Virus record (IMG/VR): IMGVR_UViG_3300025695_000130
Location: 1-20,105 of that record
Origin: a virus
Reading direction: 5' to 3' (one strand)
DNA: 20,105 bases
Numbering within the stretch: the stretch's first letter is position 1; each line of letters begins with the position of its first letter. The position numbers and the translations under genes were made by a program. The notes beneath the pieces are model-generated. The model was given only the letters and a program-made list of their open reading frames with translations. It was not told where the DNA came from and did no database searches. This document shows, piece after piece, positions 9,448 through 15,757 of the stretch.

Positions 9448-10941
9448 TTACTTTTCTTCTAAGCCATCAAGAGTTAGCTTAACTACATCTACGATTCTTT
9501 CCAGATCCATTGTAGTTGCGTTAACAACATAGCGACCTATAGCGTTGTCTTGGTTCTCACGATAAAAGTCTGTGAGAGCTTGCTTAACTTCTTCTCTACT
9601 AGACTCTTCTGTGATACCCTTCTCTTCTAGGGCAGCTAAGATAGTCTGATCGTTTTCCATAAAGAAGTCAACGGTAGGCGTAGACGCTGCAAGGTCTTCT
9701 TTCTTTTTTTCTGCTTCTTCTACTGTTTTACGCTTAAGATCTTCTACAATGCGCGGGACATCGTTTGTTTTTGCAGGCGTGGTAGGTTCATCACCGCCAA
9801 AGGGGCGAGGCTGGGAAGAAGATAGTGGATCAGAAGAATTATCAGGAGGAGTATCAGCAGGAGTATCAGCAGGAGTAGTGATTTTATCTTCCACAGTACC
9901 CCCCATAATGATAGCATCAATGTCTTTATCAGTAAGCTGACCACCCTTACGCTGAATGATTTCAATAGCTGTACCGCTAGCAATACTCTGTTGCAAAGAC
10001 TCTAGCTCTTCAGCAGAATCTACTCTCTCGTAGATGGCATCCAACACACCCTTACGGAAAGCGTTCAGAGACAAGTCCTGACCAGGGTTAGCCAGTACCA
10101 TGTCTTTCTCTAGTCTAGCTAGAGCTTGACCTGCACCAATTACGGAGGCTTTAAGTTGTAGTTTGTCTTTGTCTTTGTTTCTACCTGATGTGGGGTTGTA
10201 GTTAGAAAAATCATAAGGGTTTGTAAGGTCAGTATTAAACACCTTAGTAGACAGCATTCTAGAGTATTCATCACGTGTATTCTTAGCTGTAGTAGCTGTG
10301 TAGTCATAGGCAAAGCCACCTGCACGGGTGACATCCCCATATGGCTGCACTGGTGCAAAGCCTGCTTCCTGCATCTCAAGTAGCTGTGAATAAGACAAAC
10401 CACCAGGGCCTTTGATTTTGTCCATCTGTTCAGCGGCCTGTAGCTGCGGGTCAAACGCAAACGCTGCACGAATAAAGCTACGGGTATTAGCACCCTCGCT
10501 CTTGGGGTTATCTTCCTTAGCCATCTCTTGAGCATGTAAGCCCATGAGTTTATCTACACCCTGCTGCAGTGTCATACCTTCAGGTAGGGTAAGGTTATCT
10601 GCAGCGTTCACGTAGGACATAACCATATCAGGGCTAATATCAGCGGATGACGTACTTTTTAGATCAGCGGCTCGCTTGTCTAGTGTAAGCTGTAGATTAG
10701 GTAAGTCTGTACCATACCCCTCCACCAAAGCCAGTGTCTGTGCATCGCTTAGCCCATACTTACCACGGATAGCCTGTGCGGACTTCAGTACTATGTCTGC
10801 TGTACCCTTACGCTTAGCGTAGTTAGACTTAGCGATACGTGCGTTGTCTAGGTTCTCCTGAATCAAACGATCAAGCGTTTGCTTACGCCGATTAATGTCC
10901 GTGCTCAGCTGTTCACCAAACCCTGCCCAAAACCCTGCCAT
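9448..10941 (-). CDS. Internal virion-type protein, 497 residues
   Basis: I do not recognise a defined family. The N-terminal half is helical and charged (MAGFWAGFGEQLSTDINRRK start, then long Lys/Glu/Ala helices). The middle carries aromatic and Gly/Asn-rich stretches (for example NPYDFSNYNPTSGRN). A proline/threonine-rich linker with TPADTPADTPPDN (about residues 353-365) separates a charged C-terminal domain starting near VPRIVEDLKRK. The position just before the 1137-residue protein corresponds to that of T7 gp15, the middle internal core protein, which suggests an ejected virion component; this is inference from order only. ATG 10939-10941 has GAGG nine bases upstream, reaching into the end of the previous gene. 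The linker is encoded by a short tandem DNA repeat near 9845-9876. Confidence 0.65.
   Translation of the reverse strand: MAGFWAGFGEQLSTDINRRKQTLDRLIQENLDNARIAKSNYAKRKGTADIVLKSAQAIRGKYGLSDAQTLALVEGYGTDLPNLQLTLDKRAADLKSTSSADISPDMVMSYVNAADNLTLPEGMTLQQGVDKLMGLHAQEMAKEDNPKSEGANTRSFIRAAFAFDPQLQAAEQMDKIKGPGGLSYSQLLEMQEAGFAPVQPYGDVTRAGGFAYDYTATTAKNTRDEYSRMLSTKVFNTDLTNPYDFSNYNPTSGRNKDKDKLQLKASVIGAGQALARLEKDMVLANPGQDLSLNAFRKGVLDAIYERVDSAEELESLQQSIASGTAIEIIQRKGGQLTDKDIDAIIMGGTVEDKITTPADTPADTPPDNSSDPLSSSQPRPFGGDEPTTPAKTNDVPRIVEDLKRKTVEEAEKKKEDLAASTPTVDFFMENDQTILAALEEKGITEESSREEVKQALTDFYRENQDNAIGRYVVNATTMDLERIVDVVKLTLDGLEEK
9845..9876 (-). repeat. Short tandem repeat encoding TPAD units
   Basis: Units of GGAGTATCAGCA recur in tandem on the + strand and encode the TPADTPADTPPD linker of the 497-residue protein on the - strand. 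The 12-base period keeps the frame, so copy-number change would only lengthen the linker by four residues. Confidence 0.6.
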
Positions 10942-10945
10942 CTAC

Positions 10946-11533
10946 TTAACCTCTTGCCATCAGGCCACGCTGTTGCGGCTCTTCTTGTTCCATCATTGAG
11001 GCATCCATCTCTGGCTGCTCTTCTTGCTCTGCTTCTTGTGCAGTATCGTACTCAGACTCAGGCTTATCCAAGATGCCTAGTGATTCCATGGCTAGCTCAT
11101 AGCCTGCATCACGCTCTCCTTCGGGCGTGTCCTTGAGCATCTTAGAAGCTTTAGCTAAGATAAACTTACGCTCTTTCTCTTGCTTAGCTTCTTGGTCTTC
11201 CTCAAAACCCTCCACATAGTTTACACCAGCCTCGTTAGCAATAGAGATAATGTGTTCGTGTATGAAGGGGGCAATGATAAGGCTCACATCAATGCTGTGC
11301 CAACCTGCAGCTACACTGGTAGTAAGGATACTCTCAGCCATAGCACGTACAGGGAAGCCAATCTCTAGCAAATCTAGCATGTTATCAAGAACTTCAGGGT
11401 CATTGAACTTACTCATATGCATAGCAATAGCTTCTTCAGGATCGTTGATCTCTGGGGGATTCTCCCACGGGTAGTTCTTAGGTTCATCTGTTAAAGACTG
11501 GCCTGGGATGGGTGCTTGTAGGAGTTCTGACAT
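10946..11533 (-). CDS. Phage structural-type protein, 195 residues, unknown
   Basis: The N-terminus GQSLTDEPKNYPWENPPEIN (11-30) and the segment GFPVRAMAESILTTSVAAGWHSIDVSLIIAPFIHEHI look like a protein that recurs beside internal virion genes in marine podoviruses and cyanophages; I know no assigned function for it. The C-terminal third is highly acidic (EAEQEEQPEMDASMMEQEEPQ) and ends in a basic-hydrophobic tag RGLMARG (189-195). ATG 11531-11533 has AAGG nine bases upstream. It lies between the cell-wall hydrolase and the 497-residue internal-type protein, seven bases or less from the latter, so a virion or assembly role is likely. A scaffold or small core protein (T7 gp14-like place) is one option. 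Confidence 0.65.
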   Translation of the reverse strand: MSELLQAPIPGQSLTDEPKNYPWENPPEINDPEEAIAMHMSKFNDPEVLDNMLDLLEIGFPVRAMAESILTTSVAAGWHSIDVSLIIAPFIHEHIISIANEAGVNYVEGFEEDQEAKQEKERKFILAKASKMLKDTPEGERDAGYELAMESLGILDKPESEYDTAQEAEQEEQPEMDASMMEQEEPQQRGLMARG

Positions 11534-11570: not shown

Positions 11571-12401
11571 TTAGTTTGATCTACGGGACAACCAGCTTTT
11601 ACCATCGTAGGTCTTTTCGCTGTCAGCATTACCAAATAGGTGGTTACCCAATCTAAGAGTGCCTCTCTTTCGGTTCTTCATTTCTTTCAACCAATCAGGC
11701 CTACTTACAGCATCGTTAAGATAGTGTGTAGCACCCTTAGTGGGGTCGCTGTATTCAGCCTTAAGGATAGCAGAAGCAGCTGCATAAGAATCCTGACTAG
11801 GTATAAGCGCAAACATGTCCTGACCTTGTTCGCCCTTAGCGTAGCCTGTGTAGCTATTCCATGGAGAGAACGCGCCCTTCTTAAGAATAACCCCTTTTAT
11901 TCCGTTGCCGTACTTACCTGATGCTGCTCTATTAGCAATAACTGCCCCTACAGCAATCTTACCTTCATAGCTCTCACCTCTAGCCTCCGCCTCAATAGTC
12001 TTAGCTAGTATCTCAAGCTCAGACAGATCCTCAACGCTAGCCGCAGGTTTACCTACAGGACGAATAAGTCCCTCCGTGTAGGTAGGTGGGGTATTAAGAA
12101 ACTCCCCAGACATGCTGACATCCTCCATGCTAAAACTTTCCGTGCTATCTTTGGGAGTACGAGCTGCTCTAGTCTTAGCTGAAAGCTCTGCTACAGACTC
12201 TAGAGCTTTTTCTGGTGTAGACTCTACAGACTCTAAAGTCTCTAGAGATTGTTCTGCTGTAGATTCTAGGGCTTCCACCATACGCTCACTTGTGCGAGAC
12301 ATAACACCCTGACGTCGGGATCTATCTGCGGAAACACTGTCAGTGGTAGGAGGTGCAAACCGATTACGGATAGTGTCGATTATATTTTTACTTAACATCA
12401 T
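11571..12401 (-). CDS. SleB-type cell-wall hydrolase, probably virion-associated
   Basis: The C-terminal domain of this 276-residue protein matches the SleB/CwlJ hydrolase family (Hydrolase_2). ILAKTIEAEARGESYEGKIA (131-150) holds the likely catalytic glutamate E139 in EARGE, followed by VGAVIANRA, FSPWN (178-182), and a late segment ATHYLND (224-230) with GNHLFGN (252-258). Such enzymes cleave the peptidoglycan glycan chain as lytic transglycosylases. The N-terminal ~110 residues are a low-complexity Ser/Glu/Thr region with repeated ALES/LETLES units and no signal peptide. Placed inside the internal-virion block, it probably opens the wall locally during DNA entry; use as a lysis enzyme is the alternative. 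Two adjacent ATGs (12399 and 12396) could start it. Confidence 0.85.
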   Translation of the reverse strand: MMLSKNIIDTIRNRFAPPTTDSVSADRSRRQGVMSRTSERMVEALESTAEQSLETLESVESTPEKALESVAELSAKTRAARTPKDSTESFSMEDVSMSGEFLNTPPTYTEGLIRPVGKPAASVEDLSELEILAKTIEAEARGESYEGKIAVGAVIANRAASGKYGNGIKGVILKKGAFSPWNSYTGYAKGEQGQDMFALIPSQDSYAAASAILKAEYSDPTKGATHYLNDAVSRPDWLKEMKNRKRGTLRLGNHLFGNADSEKTYDGKSWLSRRSN

Positions 12402-12404
12402 AAT

Positions 12405-14369
12405 TTATCCAAACCACTTACCTAATACTGCCTGAAAAGCCATAGCAGCAAGCTTACCCTTACCGATATTGTCCTGTAGCTTTGCTTGCTCATCCGCTGT
12501 AAGCTTAGCAATAGCAATCTGAGTAGACCTATCAGCATTACCCTCAGCAGAAGCAAAGGCATAACTCATAAGGTCTCGCTCTCTCTGCCATATCTGATCC
12601 ATGTTGGCTGCAGTCAAAGCATTTATTGTTTTAGCATAGTCCATGTTGCTCTGGTTCTGCACAGCGGTATTTATAGTAGAAATGTTCTGACGCCACTGCG
12701 CATTAGCCTGTGCAATTATAAGGCCATTCTCTGCATTGAACCGATCTCGCTGTTGTTGCAACTCTGCGTTAAACTGATTCAATGTATTAATTGAGTCTGC
12801 ATCAAACTGACCCATAGCGTTGGTCTGAGCAGCGTTAAACTGACTGGTCAGCATACTCAGGTTAGCGAAGAACTGTTCCGTCTGGTTCTCACTTGTCGCG
12901 TTAAACTGTGATGCAGCATTGGTAGCAGCTTGGTCAGAGAACAAAGCCTGTACCTGCTGTTGAGCTTTAAAGATAGTAGTTTGTTGCTCATTACTCAGGT
13001 TAGACATGTCCATCTGCAGGAAGCTCTGCGCATTCTGTACAGCTGCCTGTTGGCGGTTACTTAGGTTGGACAAGTCCATGTTAGCAAGAGCAGAAGCCTC
13101 CGCAATAACAATAGCCTGACGGTTAGACAGATTGTTCAACTCCATTGTGTTAGCGGCACGGCTGTTCTCCAGAGCAATGTTCTGCTCCGCAGTGAAGTTC
13201 ATATTAGCAATGTCGCCAATACGTGCAGAGTTAGCTACGCGGGCTTGAAAAGCTTGGTCAAACTCCATACCTAGAAATTCTGCACGTTGTTGCGCACCCA
13301 GCATAGCACGTTGCTGTCGGTTAGACAGGTTCTGTGATTCAAACTGTGCCTGTGTCTGTGCATCCATCTGAGCGATAGGCAACGCAGCTTCCATCGTTGC
13401 TTGAATGACAGCTTGGCCTGCCATGCTCGACGCACCTAAGCCTCGTGCCGCTAGCGCAGATGTAGCAGCCCTCATAGCGCCCGCAGCCCATGGAGGGGTA
13501 GCGCCACCCTCGAAGTCTTCCATGAGACTCTCTAGCTGACCTGCTACAGTGGCCTTCTCAGTAGGAGTGGCCTGTGCAGCCTGGACTTGCTCAGTAAAGG
13601 CAGCAGCCTTCTCAGCATTGGCAACGCCAGAGATAAGCTCCCCTTCTTGAATTTCACGCTGGACGGGGTTGTCCATCATGATAGCTTGACCCTGTGCTGC
13701 CTGCAGTTTAGACACAGAAGATGCTGCCATCTGCGCGGCTTCTACCTGTGCCTCTGCAGAAACTTCGCCCTCAGCAGCCTGTGTTGCATCAAGAGTAGCC
13801 GCCACTTCAGGTTGCACCATTGTAGCAGACATCTGCGCTGCTTCTTTAGCAGGTTGTTGTTCGGCTGTAGCGGCACTACCGACCTGAACAGCCTCTGCTA
13901 GAGGTGCATCTGTAGAGATTTGCCCTACAGTAGAATCGACGATCTGATCATCCGTTTCTTTTAGCTCTTTTACTTCACTTTCAACAGGGGACATTGTTTT
14001 CATAACAAGGTCTTGCTGTGCCTGCGCTAGATCAGTTGGACTAAAGTTTGATGTGTTAAGCTCAGCTTGCGTTGAATCAGCTTCCGTTGAATCAGCAACA
14101 TCTTCGTCAGTCTCTTCTTCAGGACCAACGTAGCCTTCTGCTCCAGGACCGACAACGGGTTTAAACTCTGATGCATCTCCTCCTTCGTTGTAACCGCTAC
14201 GCATCAAGCCACCACGAGCCATAAGAGCGCTATTGTATCCCTGCATCTTAGCAGCTACAGCAGGACTAGACTGCCTAAACTGGTCGATAGCTTCTTTATT
14301 CTTAGGGCCTGTATAGCCCAAGAACTTGGAAGCCATACGATACATCCCATCTAGCTGTGCGTCTTGCAT
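12405..14369 (-). CDS. Large virion protein with long 11-residue-repeat helical domain
   Basis: This 654-residue protein is not assigned to a named family by me. It has three parts. Residues 1-60 form a folded N-terminus with the tag ALMARGGLMRSG (48-59). Residues about 61-300 are Ala/Glu/Gln/Thr-rich and low in complexity. Residues 347 to about 630 contain no proline or cysteine and show an exact 11-residue period. NLSN occurs at 347, 413, 435 and 457, all separated by multiples of 11. Phe recurs at 489, 500, 511, 522, 533 and 544. This predicts a very long right-handed helical coil or bundle. The place between fibre genes and ejection proteins suggests a virion internal or channel component. 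The start ATG 14367-14369 has only a weak GGAT site upstream. Confidence 0.72.
   Translation of the reverse strand: MQDAQLDGMYRMASKFLGYTGPKNKEAIDQFRQSSPAVAAKMQGYNSALMARGGLMRSGYNEGGDASEFKPVVGPGAEGYVGPEEETDEDVADSTEADSTQAELNTSNFSPTDLAQAQQDLVMKTMSPVESEVKELKETDDQIVDSTVGQISTDAPLAEAVQVGSAATAEQQPAKEAAQMSATMVQPEVAATLDATQAAEGEVSAEAQVEAAQMAASSVSKLQAAQGQAIMMDNPVQREIQEGELISGVANAEKAAAFTEQVQAAQATPTEKATVAGQLESLMEDFEGGATPPWAAGAMRAATSALAARGLGASSMAGQAVIQATMEAALPIAQMDAQTQAQFESQNLSNRQQRAMLGAQQRAEFLGMEFDQAFQARVANSARIGDIANMNFTAEQNIALENSRAANTMELNNLSNRQAIVIAEASALANMDLSNLSNRQQAAVQNAQSFLQMDMSNLSNEQQTTIFKAQQQVQALFSDQAATNAASQFNATSENQTEQFFANLSMLTSQFNAAQTNAMGQFDADSINTLNQFNAELQQQRDRFNAENGLIIAQANAQWRQNISTINTAVQNQSNMDYAKTINALTAANMDQIWQRERDLMSYAFASAEGNADRSTQIAIAKLTADEQAKLQDNIGKGKLAAMAFQAVLGKWFG
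12474..13331 (-). repeat. Hendecad (33-base, 11-residue) coding repeat region
   Basis: The region codes about 26 degenerate 11-residue units in the 654-residue protein. Units include NLSNRQQAAVQ, NLSNEQQTTIF, NATSENQTEQF, NAAQTNAMGQF and NAELQQQRDRF. The period is kept at protein level with no insertion; DNA identity between units is low except in the NLSN and QFNA parts. Confidence 0.75.
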
Positions 14370-14396: not shown

Positions 14397-14747
14397 TTAG
14401 GTGCGTATGAACCTGGCCACGTCTTCTACGGGAAGTACGTATGAGAGGCTACTTGTTATGCCTTGGTTAATGCGCTTGAGTAATCTGTGCCTGCCATCCA
14501 ACATACGGTATAGCTTACCGTGAGGGTTCTGCATTCCTAGGCATAGGATAGAAGGCTGCGCAATGTCTGCTAGTATGTATCGTCTAGATGTTAGACTAAT
14601 GTCCTCTAAGGGTTTGTGAGAAATGGTATCTACAGGAATAGTGTACGGGGTTAGTTTACGAGACTTAGCTAACTTGTACAGAGGTAAGCAGTCTATGTAG
14701 GAGGCTTCTTCTAGAACAGCCCACTCACCCGTCATTATGTGATGCAT
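14397..14747 (-). CDS. Small DGRHR protein, ParB/sulfiredoxin-like fold suspected
   Basis: The 116-residue product carries LDGRHRLLKRINQGITSSLSYVLP (residues about 83-106). This resembles the GERRYRA or GGCHRY loop of the ParB N-terminal/sulfiredoxin superfamily, which binds nucleotide or phosphate and is followed by a helix and a final strand. Upstream, SRRYILADIAQPSILCLG fits the first strands of that fold. The catalytic or ligand role is unknown; a ParB-type nuclease/CTPase function is not shown. ATG 14745-14747 overlaps the oxygenase gene by 23 bases; an alternative ATG at 14733-14735 would give 112 residues and an 11-base overlap. It is followed by a 27-base gap before the hendecad-repeat gene. 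Confidence 0.6.
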   Translation of the reverse strand: MHHIMTGEWAVLEEASYIDCLPLYKLAKSRKLTPYTIPVDTISHKPLEDISLTSRRYILADIAQPSILCLGMQNPHGKLYRMLDGRHRLLKRINQGITSSLSYVLPVEDVARFIRT

Positions 14748-15300
14748 TAAGTCTATACCCTATACTAATACGATCTGTCTCGCTACCCACACAGTGCCAA
14801 AGATAAGGAGGTTTATCCTGGATGTCAAACACTCTAAAGGTGAGGCCTGCATTATCGTAGTCTGTGACTACCTTACCGTTCTGTACGTACCTAAAGAATG
14901 ATTTATTACCCTGTGCAGTCCAAGTGATGTACATGCGTTTACAAGGTACGTCGCTGTTTGTATGCCAGCCCATGTAACCTGTAGGAGGGTAATGAAAGAA
15001 GCCGCTAGGTGAAACCTTATACTGAGGAAAAGCCTCACTGATAACGCTAGTAATCTTTCTGTGTATGCCGAGTCGCTCAAAGCTTATAAGGTTATCAGCC
15101 TGTGATACAGCTGTGTTAGAACTTCTAAGTAGGGCGTCTTCTGTAAGATAGCTCTCCCAGTCAGGGACTGTGCGAACACCAACACTCCTACTGTGTGCAA
15201 GTATACTACGCAGGTTCTTAGTGATTACCTTTTCAATAGCGGCTACGTGCTGATCTTCTAGGTTAATCTTAAGCGAGGGCTGCGCTGTACTTTGCGTCAT
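14725..15300 (-). CDS. Putative 2OG-Fe(II) oxygenase-like protein with HxN motif
   Basis: The 191-residue product has a double-stranded beta-helix oxygenase look. It shows FFHYPPTGYMGWHTNSD (H113, N115, D117), a core KSFFRYVQNG, and LWHCVGSETDRISIGYRL with distal H169 and R177. In 2-oxoglutarate/Fe(II) dioxygenases HxD...H binds iron, and an Arg or Lys about 8-12 residues after the distal His binds 2-oxoglutarate; H169 to R177 fits. The odd point is HTN where HxD is expected, so D117 or N115 would have to substitute, or the protein is not a standard oxygenase. I start it at ATG 15298-15300, which overlaps the previous gene by 32 bases; the upstream ATG at 15361-15363 has no ribosome-binding site. 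The place next to the fibre genes suggests modification of a virion or surface component (inference). Confidence 0.6.
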   Translation of the reverse strand: MTQSTAQPSLKINLEDQHVAAIEKVITKNLRSILAHSRSVGVRTVPDWESYLTEDALLRSSNTAVSQADNLISFERLGIHRKITSVISEAFPQYKVSPSGFFHYPPTGYMGWHTNSDVPCKRMYITWTAQGNKSFFRYVQNGKVVTDYDNAGLTFRVFDIQDKPPYLWHCVGSETDRISIGYRLNASHNDG

Positions 15301-15757
15301 AATCTTCGAACAACTCCGAGGGGTTATGCTCACAGGTAGAGGTGAACGTAGTATACGTAGCATAGTCTACACTGTCAGGCAGATCACGTAAAGCTTTCTT
15401 GTCAGCCTCAATCTGATTAACTACATCAGTAGCGTTCTTAACTAGAGCACGTTGTTGGAGCACATCTAGCTTAGGCAGGAGAACAGCGCGACACTCGCGA
15501 TATACATCTTTCCACCATAGATCTACAAGTTCCATGTCAAACAAAACAGCGGTAGGGTTATCCAAGTCGTCAAACACCAGCTTATCTACATGGGACAGCA
15601 TGGCCCTCCCCTCGTCTGTGCTAGGCTCAGGCTGAACTAGGGTAGCTGCATTGGCAGGGACTACGTCTGCCTCTACAAGTTCTGCTACGGTTTTGTCTGT
15701 GTTAACAAACTGTACTTTAGGGGTGCCTACAGGGGCGTTGAAGAAGATAATGCTCAT
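15269..15757 (-). CDS. Putative tail-fibre assembly chaperone
   Basis: This 162-residue acidic protein directly follows the tail-fibre gene with a nine-base gap; an AGAGG ribosome-binding site overlaps the fibre stop codon. The N-terminus MSIIFFNAPVGTPKVQFVNT (1-20) is strand-like. A central helix RECRAVLLPKLDVLQQRALV leads to QIEADKKALRDLPDSVDYAT. This K/R-xALRDLP element recalls small tail-assembly chaperones (Phage_tail_APC or DUF4376-like), which have a C-terminal YRqaLRdlp region. The similarity is short, so the call rests mostly on position after the fibre. Its 3' end overlaps the oxygenase-like gene by 32 bases. It could also be a minor structural protein. Confidence 0.5.
   Translation of the reverse strand: MSIIFFNAPVGTPKVQFVNTDKTVAELVEADVVPANAATLVQPEPSTDEGRAMLSHVDKLVFDDLDNPTAVLFDMELVDLWWKDVYRECRAVLLPKLDVLQQRALVKNATDVVNQIEADKKALRDLPDSVDYATYTTFTSTCEHNPSELFEDYDAKYSAALA

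Follow-up and report, generated by a model that had tools for sequence, protein, structure and literature searches.

An 11-residue-repeat protein of HMO-2011-type phages, whose repeat varies in length among relatives in steps of 11, is a candidate component of the DNA ejection machinery

The window analysed here, a 20,105-base virus fragment from IMG/VR, codes on its minus strand (positions 12405-14369) for a 654-residue protein, P0001. Its C-terminal half is built of 11-residue (hendecad) units predicted to be helical, and the length of this region varies among its relatives in multiples of 11 residues. Because this 11-step helix is encoded in a block expected to specify the delivery machinery, P0001 is probably a rod- or tube-forming part of that machinery. 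We put at about one half the probability that it belongs to the virion as part of the ejection cassette in short-tailed phages of the HMO-2011 type.

The gene content and order of the window identify it as part of an HMO-2011-type short-tailed phage. Relatives of P0001 were gathered from IMG/VR by queries of growing distance, and annotated phages were added. In tblastn searches the closest one is gp49 of Roseobacter phage CRP-2 (62.5% identity), and phage1322_25 of Puniceispirillum phage HMO-2011 is 52.7% identical to P0001. Both are annotated as hypothetical, like the other relatives found in HMO-2011-type and related short-tailed phages. Homology with this phage1322_25/CRP-2 gp49 family extends over the linker and the rod described below, and synteny is kept. 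Three relatives (L337, L338 and L339) come from contigs placed in Campylobacteraceae and Maricaulis genome bins, probably phage contigs that ended up in bins of metagenomes. A homologue in a public phage record (L089:6366-8957) is labelled 'huntingtin', probably a false transfer from low-complexity sequence.

Pfam and PHROG scans assigned no family to P0001 or to its long or distant relatives; a Pfam MtrB match (E=0.046) fails the MtrB cut-off and was disregarded. The PDB yielded no match to P0001 by profile search or by fold search with the model. A fold search of BFVD returned, among the strongest matches, proteins that we presume from their size and accession to be members of the P0001 family; weak matches there with names of the 'DNA transfer' or 'tape measure' kind were not taken as evidence. 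As no such family turned up in Pfam, PHROG or PDB, it is unnamed in the resources searched, in agreement with the initial annotation, whose author knew of no named family.

The repeat lies where it was first noticed, at 13331..12474 on the minus strand (residues 347-632). The 11-residue period is real over residues ~347-611. Compared with shuffles of the same segment (residues 337-632), identity at lags 11, 22, 33 and 44 gives z values of 4.1, 8.6, 5.1 and 4.5, respectively, and lag 7 gives no signal, so that a heptad reading was dropped, in line with the hendecad proposed from the outset. Asn occupies 16 of the 26 positions of one 11-register between residues 347 and 622, against a mean of 6.1 and a maximum of 11 among 20,000 shuffles (P<=5e-5), and up to seven Phe share one 11-register (P about 0.001). 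The NLSN motifs at residues 347, 413, 435 and 457 fall in a single register, as do the Phe residues at 489, 500, 511, 522, 533 and 544, exactly as initially listed. Pro and Cys are both missing from residues 347-632, another early observation that holds, and the longest Pro-free run of the protein covers residues 332-654. In the first half of the rod (about 402-478) the true unit is of 22 residues (2x11), of the NLSNRQQAAVQNAQSFLQMDMS type, and the second half consists of an 11-residue 'FNA' repeat of the FNAxxxNAxxQ type; both types fade at the edges. The register is held through the whole rod and kept across a large group of viruses. Thus, the repeat is 'unbroken', as first described, in its register; in sequence identity it is not, with weak stretches at residues 358-379 and beyond ~567, nor in the helix model, which has two breaks.

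We modelled the P0001 monomer with AlphaFold2 from a 101-sequence alignment (mean pLDDT 70, pTM 0.32; with this pTM the relative placement of the helices is not established). The extended helix that the initial annotation had asked a structure model to show is mostly there. It is near-continuous over residues 315-652 at moderate confidence, with segments at 315-365, 372-456 and 461-652 separated by breaks at 366-371 and 457-460. At 0.15 nm per residue, the 286 residues of the rod would measure about 43 nm if straight, close to the 40 nm first suggested, whereas the breaks of the model cut it into pieces of about 8, 13 and 29 nm.

To describe the faces of the helix, the 11 positions were pooled over 149 non-redundant sequences. 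Position p1 is Asn in 67% of cases, and p5 and p9 are charged in about 40%. There are two apolar stripes, p2/p10, chiefly in the first half of the rod, and p11/p8, in which p11 (Phe) is found chiefly in the second half. Between them sits an uncharged face, p3/p7, of Gln, Ser, Asn and Ala. Two such stripes would suit a helix flanked by others on each side, as in a sheet or barrel. The dominant stripe switches between the two halves, and this shift of the apolar face puts the hydrophobicity maximum at 96.8 degrees per residue instead of 98.2. The right-handed coil put forward initially is therefore not supported as stated.

Rod length was measured as the spacing between two anchors, PIA, immediately ahead of the repeat, and WR, close to its end. 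In 323 of 324 loci this spacing differs from that of the window by multiples of 11 only, and the 324 loci form ten length classes (-77, -66, -55, -44, -11, 0, +11, +44, +77 and +88 residues). The single outlier (L289, -58) was anchored at FYR instead of WR; in neighbouring sequences FYR stands 14 residues before WR, and a correction by 14, inferred from them, would bring this locus to -44. Apparent spacings of -52, 114 and 322 were traced to wrong anchors. Among annotated phages, the spacing is +88 relative to the window in HTVC103P and HTVC115P, -44 in MQM1 and Slicky01, -55 in CHOED, -66 in HTVC033P, CRP-3, CRP-212 and CRP-738, and -77 in RHph_N3_19 and phiM6.

A tree of the relatives built without the variable middle needs at least ten changes of length class. 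As a control, a nearby spacing in the linker takes values of 12, 15, 19 and 20, varying by 3-5 residues. The probability that ten changes are all divisible by 11 is about 11^-10 given equal odds for any indel size, a figure that recombination between repeats could weaken, as the multiples of 11 could partly reflect recombination and not selection. The spacings observed, 151-316 residues, correspond to about 23-47 nm if straight. Pelagibacter phages have both 24-nm (162-residue) and 47-nm (316-residue) versions, HTVC033P on the one hand and HTVC103P and HTVC115P on the other, so the host envelope does not simply dictate how long the rod is, and the idea of a host-set length was abandoned as unsupported.

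The other parts of P0001 are less constant, except for the linker. An N-terminal mini-domain of three helices (residues 2-52, 14214..14366, minus strand; AF2 pLDDT mostly 84-96) is variably placed or missing in relatives. It is followed by a variable Ala/Gln/Glu-rich region (residues 53-261, 13587..14213, minus strand) with pLDDT mostly below 60 save at ~111-170. From the start of the ORF to PIA, family members have between 183 and 1041 residues; L009:4926-9893, L003:3937-7662 and L021:3837-7745 carry N-terminal extensions of several hundred to ~1000 residues. Such extensions are Pro/Gly/Thr-rich in many relatives, with GG(L/M)M..GY motifs, and match nothing in Pfam or PHROG. The linker (residues 262-346, 13332..13586, minus strand) is conserved, with near-invariant columns in A1/A5/A8 and the motifs GQL..L, P.WA.GAMR, RGLGASS.AGQA and ALPIAQ.DAQ. 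After the rod comes an amphipathic, Gly-containing tail (residues 633-654, 12408..12473, minus strand). Its hydrophobicity is under the transmembrane threshold, so that a transmembrane C-terminus is unsupported, and P0001 as a whole has no canonical transmembrane segment.

In some relatives the tail is swapped for another end. The homologues of CRP-3, CRP-212 and CRP-738 terminate in a Peptidase_S74 chaperone (E 7e-6 to 2e-10), for which the C-terminus of P0001 itself gave no Pfam match. S74-like ends occur in 12 of the 149 non-redundant members, every one of them in the -66 class. A second alternative, CWVAREVYG...W..FR.WL...AP.W... (L082:13800-14064, L080:9400-9749), is present in HMO-2011 and in a small number of other loci. 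The S74 domain is chiefly familiar from trimeric spikes and fibres, but a tblastn search with the CRP-3 protein also found its end in proteins annotated for 'DNA ejection/injection' in Salmonella phage 7-11, its relatives and Cronobacter phage A24, and in gp11 of AH02, whose gene immediately precedes that of a 'P22-like injection translocase'. The S74 ends of P0001 relatives and of ejection proteins align at hhalign probabilities of 97.8-98.1%. Since S74 also ends annotated ejection proteins, it does not decide between a fibre and an ejection protein.

The P0001 gene is the first of a conserved late block. This agrees with the virion-block setting assigned initially, and the block resembles a podovirus ejection cassette. 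Directly downstream is a gene for a 276-residue SleB-like cell-wall hydrolase (11571..12401, minus strand; Hydrolase_2, PF07486, E=3.2e-22), which is optional, being seen in only 11 loci. Next comes a 195-residue protein (10946..11533, minus strand) with a conserved APIPGQSLT.EP...PWE.PPE start and a GLMAR end. Its family follows the hendecad gene in 242 of the 244 loci that extend 3 kb or more downstream; the window member has no PHROG match and nothing meaningful in a PDB profile search. It is followed by a fast-evolving 497-residue protein (9448..10941, minus strand), gp15/gp20-like by order and size, with no Pfam or PHROG family match. Within its gene a short 12-bp tandem repeat (window 9829-9877) encodes a Pro/Ala/Asp/Thr linker. 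The last is a large protein of 1137 residues, P0005 (6026..9439, minus strand), gp16-like by position and mostly helical in its AF2 model, for which PDB searches gave no sequence or fold match, the fold model being of low confidence. A genome figure legend of the RCA-phage paper carries the label IVP-D (PMC6918029). On the other side of P0001, a 212-residue 2OG-Fe-oxygenase-like ORF (14725-15363) overlaps the preceding gene (15269-15757, minus strand) by 95 bases at its called start and likely starts later.

In 14 annotated phages (HMO-2011, CRP, HTVC, CHOED, MQM1, Slicky01, Rhizobium and Sinorhizobium phages) the same order is kept: the hendecad gene, short gene(s) or a hydrolase gene, then genes for proteins of ~165-205, ~365-935 and ~815 residues upward. 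Podovirus ejection operons typically encode proteins of ~200, 430-980 and 600-1340 residues (PMC8954989), and the window block, with one protein of ~200 residues, one of middle size and one very large, matches this pattern. As the 195- and 1137-residue families have no homology to solved ejection proteins, the gp15/gp16-like identity of these neighbours is positional only. In several phages fibre-like genes lie directly upstream, so that the hendecad gene sits between them and the presumed ejection genes.

The ejection proteins of podoviruses are helical and fast-evolving (PMC8954989), and T7 gp14-16 and P22 gp7, gp20 and gp16 are likewise encoded by late genes that lie in a cluster and match in order and size class. 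P0001 aligns with T7 gp14 and P22 gp7, gp20 and gp16 at hhalign probabilities of 0.2% or less, and T7 gp15 and gp16 were compared with it through PDB searches only. In contrast with P0001, T7 gp14 and the three P22 proteins have no 11-residue period; P0001 lacks the canonical transmembrane segment of T7 gp14, and the window block has an extra gene, that of the ~190-residue protein. The block of phiEco32-like phage 7-11 (412-299-181-545-~650 residues) parallels that of the window (654-276-195-497-1137). The gp020 of phage 7-11, like AH02 gp11, shares the S74 end with P0001 relatives and not with P0001 itself, and the rod regions of these two proteins are not homologous to P0001 and have no 11-residue period. 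For SU10, another phiEco32-like phage, a DNA injection protein was detected in phage preparations by MS (PMC4281155); we found no virion proteomics for a member of the P0001 family in the literature available. A 519-residue hypothetical protein of Pseudoalteromonas phage vB_Pun_Y3 shares the linker (RGL.SSS.G...ALPIAQQDA; hhalign probability 93%), followed by a Gln-rich stretch, and has an 11-residue period over the whole protein (z = 3.6). It differs in its repeat sequence, its Gly-rich end, its neighbouring genes and the equal strength of other lags.

The closest functional parallel is phiX174 H, which forms a tube that pilots DNA; part of it is hendecad, and amide side chains line the lumen (PMC7354561). 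It too is a long, amide-rich helical rod that starts with hendecads and serves to bring a genome across the envelope (PMC7354561). Nevertheless, it has three hendecads and then heptads, where P0001 has about 25 hendecads. Polar residues are placed differently on the helix wheel, and a profile search of PDB sequences gave no match between the two at E<=10. Whereas phiX174 H is a decameric alpha-helical tube of a tailless ssDNA phage, the P0001 family of short-tailed dsDNA phages is known here from sequence and a monomer model. That P0001 stands for a class of dsDNA-phage conduit not described before, an alpha-helical tube made of hendecads only and quantised in length, which carries DNA across the envelope and is convergent with the H tube in its mechanism, is a rather doubtful idea.

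Three other explanations have to be weighed. The main one, a serious though unlikely contender, is an external appendage, in which three copies of P0001 would wind into a right-handed hendecad coiled coil, forming the stalk of a whisker or of a fibre on the tail or head. The S74 chaperone of some relatives would lock the trimer and be cut off after folding, and the variable N-terminal part would attach the stalk or carry other functions. The S74 ends of the 12 members, the fibre-like genes upstream and the adhesin-like N-terminal variability all speak for such a stalk, and trimeric undecad coiled coils exist, according to the title of PMC6191539. However, the window protein and most relatives have no S74, and the repeat is unusually rich in Asn, Gln and Ala, with two apolar stripes instead of one strong core. 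In addition, the rod and linker are conserved rather than a variable tip, and the conserved partner is the downstream ~190-residue gene.

This partner gene, together with the quantised length and the contrast between a helical C-terminal half and an N-terminal half that is disordered or variable, would also suit an internal protein of the head or core, a scaffold or ruler shaped as a rod, which varies in 11-residue steps and forms no channel itself. While the phage is assembled, such a protein would organise the packaged DNA or the ejection stack. We consider this improbable: no similarity to scaffolds was found, and the length classes do not track the host, as the Pelagibacter phages show. 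Least likely of the three, with a low probability, is that the multiples of 11 are a mere mutational footprint of a recombining array whose exact register is irrelevant. Tandem arrays in general grow or shrink by whole units, but the array of the window retains no DNA-level tandem repeat, none of the 324 loci, which reach down to about 26-40% identity, shows an out-of-step indel, and changes of 3-5 residues are tolerated in the flanking linker.

For P0001 as an ejection protein, we infer packaging, ejection, oligomerisation, a tube-like geometry and contact with DNA. The protein would be stored in the phage head before infection. The conserved linker would lead into a long alpha-helix of 11-residue units, each making three turns, and several copies may pack side by side through the two apolar stripes. 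One face would then present uncharged Gln, Ser, Asn and Ala and the other the charged residues and an Asn ladder, the packed helices giving a straight rod or tube. The variable C-terminus, be it the Gly-rich tail, the S74 chaperone or the other end, might anchor the protein or set its oligomeric state. With the downstream ~190-, ~500- and ~1100-residue proteins, and with a contribution of the wall hydrolase in some phages, P0001 may help build a conduit through the cell envelope, working like the phiX174 H pilot tube without being homologous to it. The initial suggestion that the rod spans the envelope or lines an ejection channel is thus plausible but unproven.

HMO-2011-type phages are reported to rank with the most abundant and widespread viral groups of the sea (PMC9038755), and we found no study of their DNA delivery in the literature. 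What is new here is the family, unnamed in Pfam, PHROG and PDB; the kind of working proposed for it is known. Should P0001 be instead the stalk of a fibre, it would still be an unusually long hendecad coiled coil without a named family. If its role in ejection is true, the natural 11-step length series and the conserved partner gene would make a simple, testable system, with the prediction that the protein should tolerate changes of length in step and not those out of step. Short-tailed dsDNA phages would also be linked in this way to a tailless ssDNA phage and its hendecad pilot tube.
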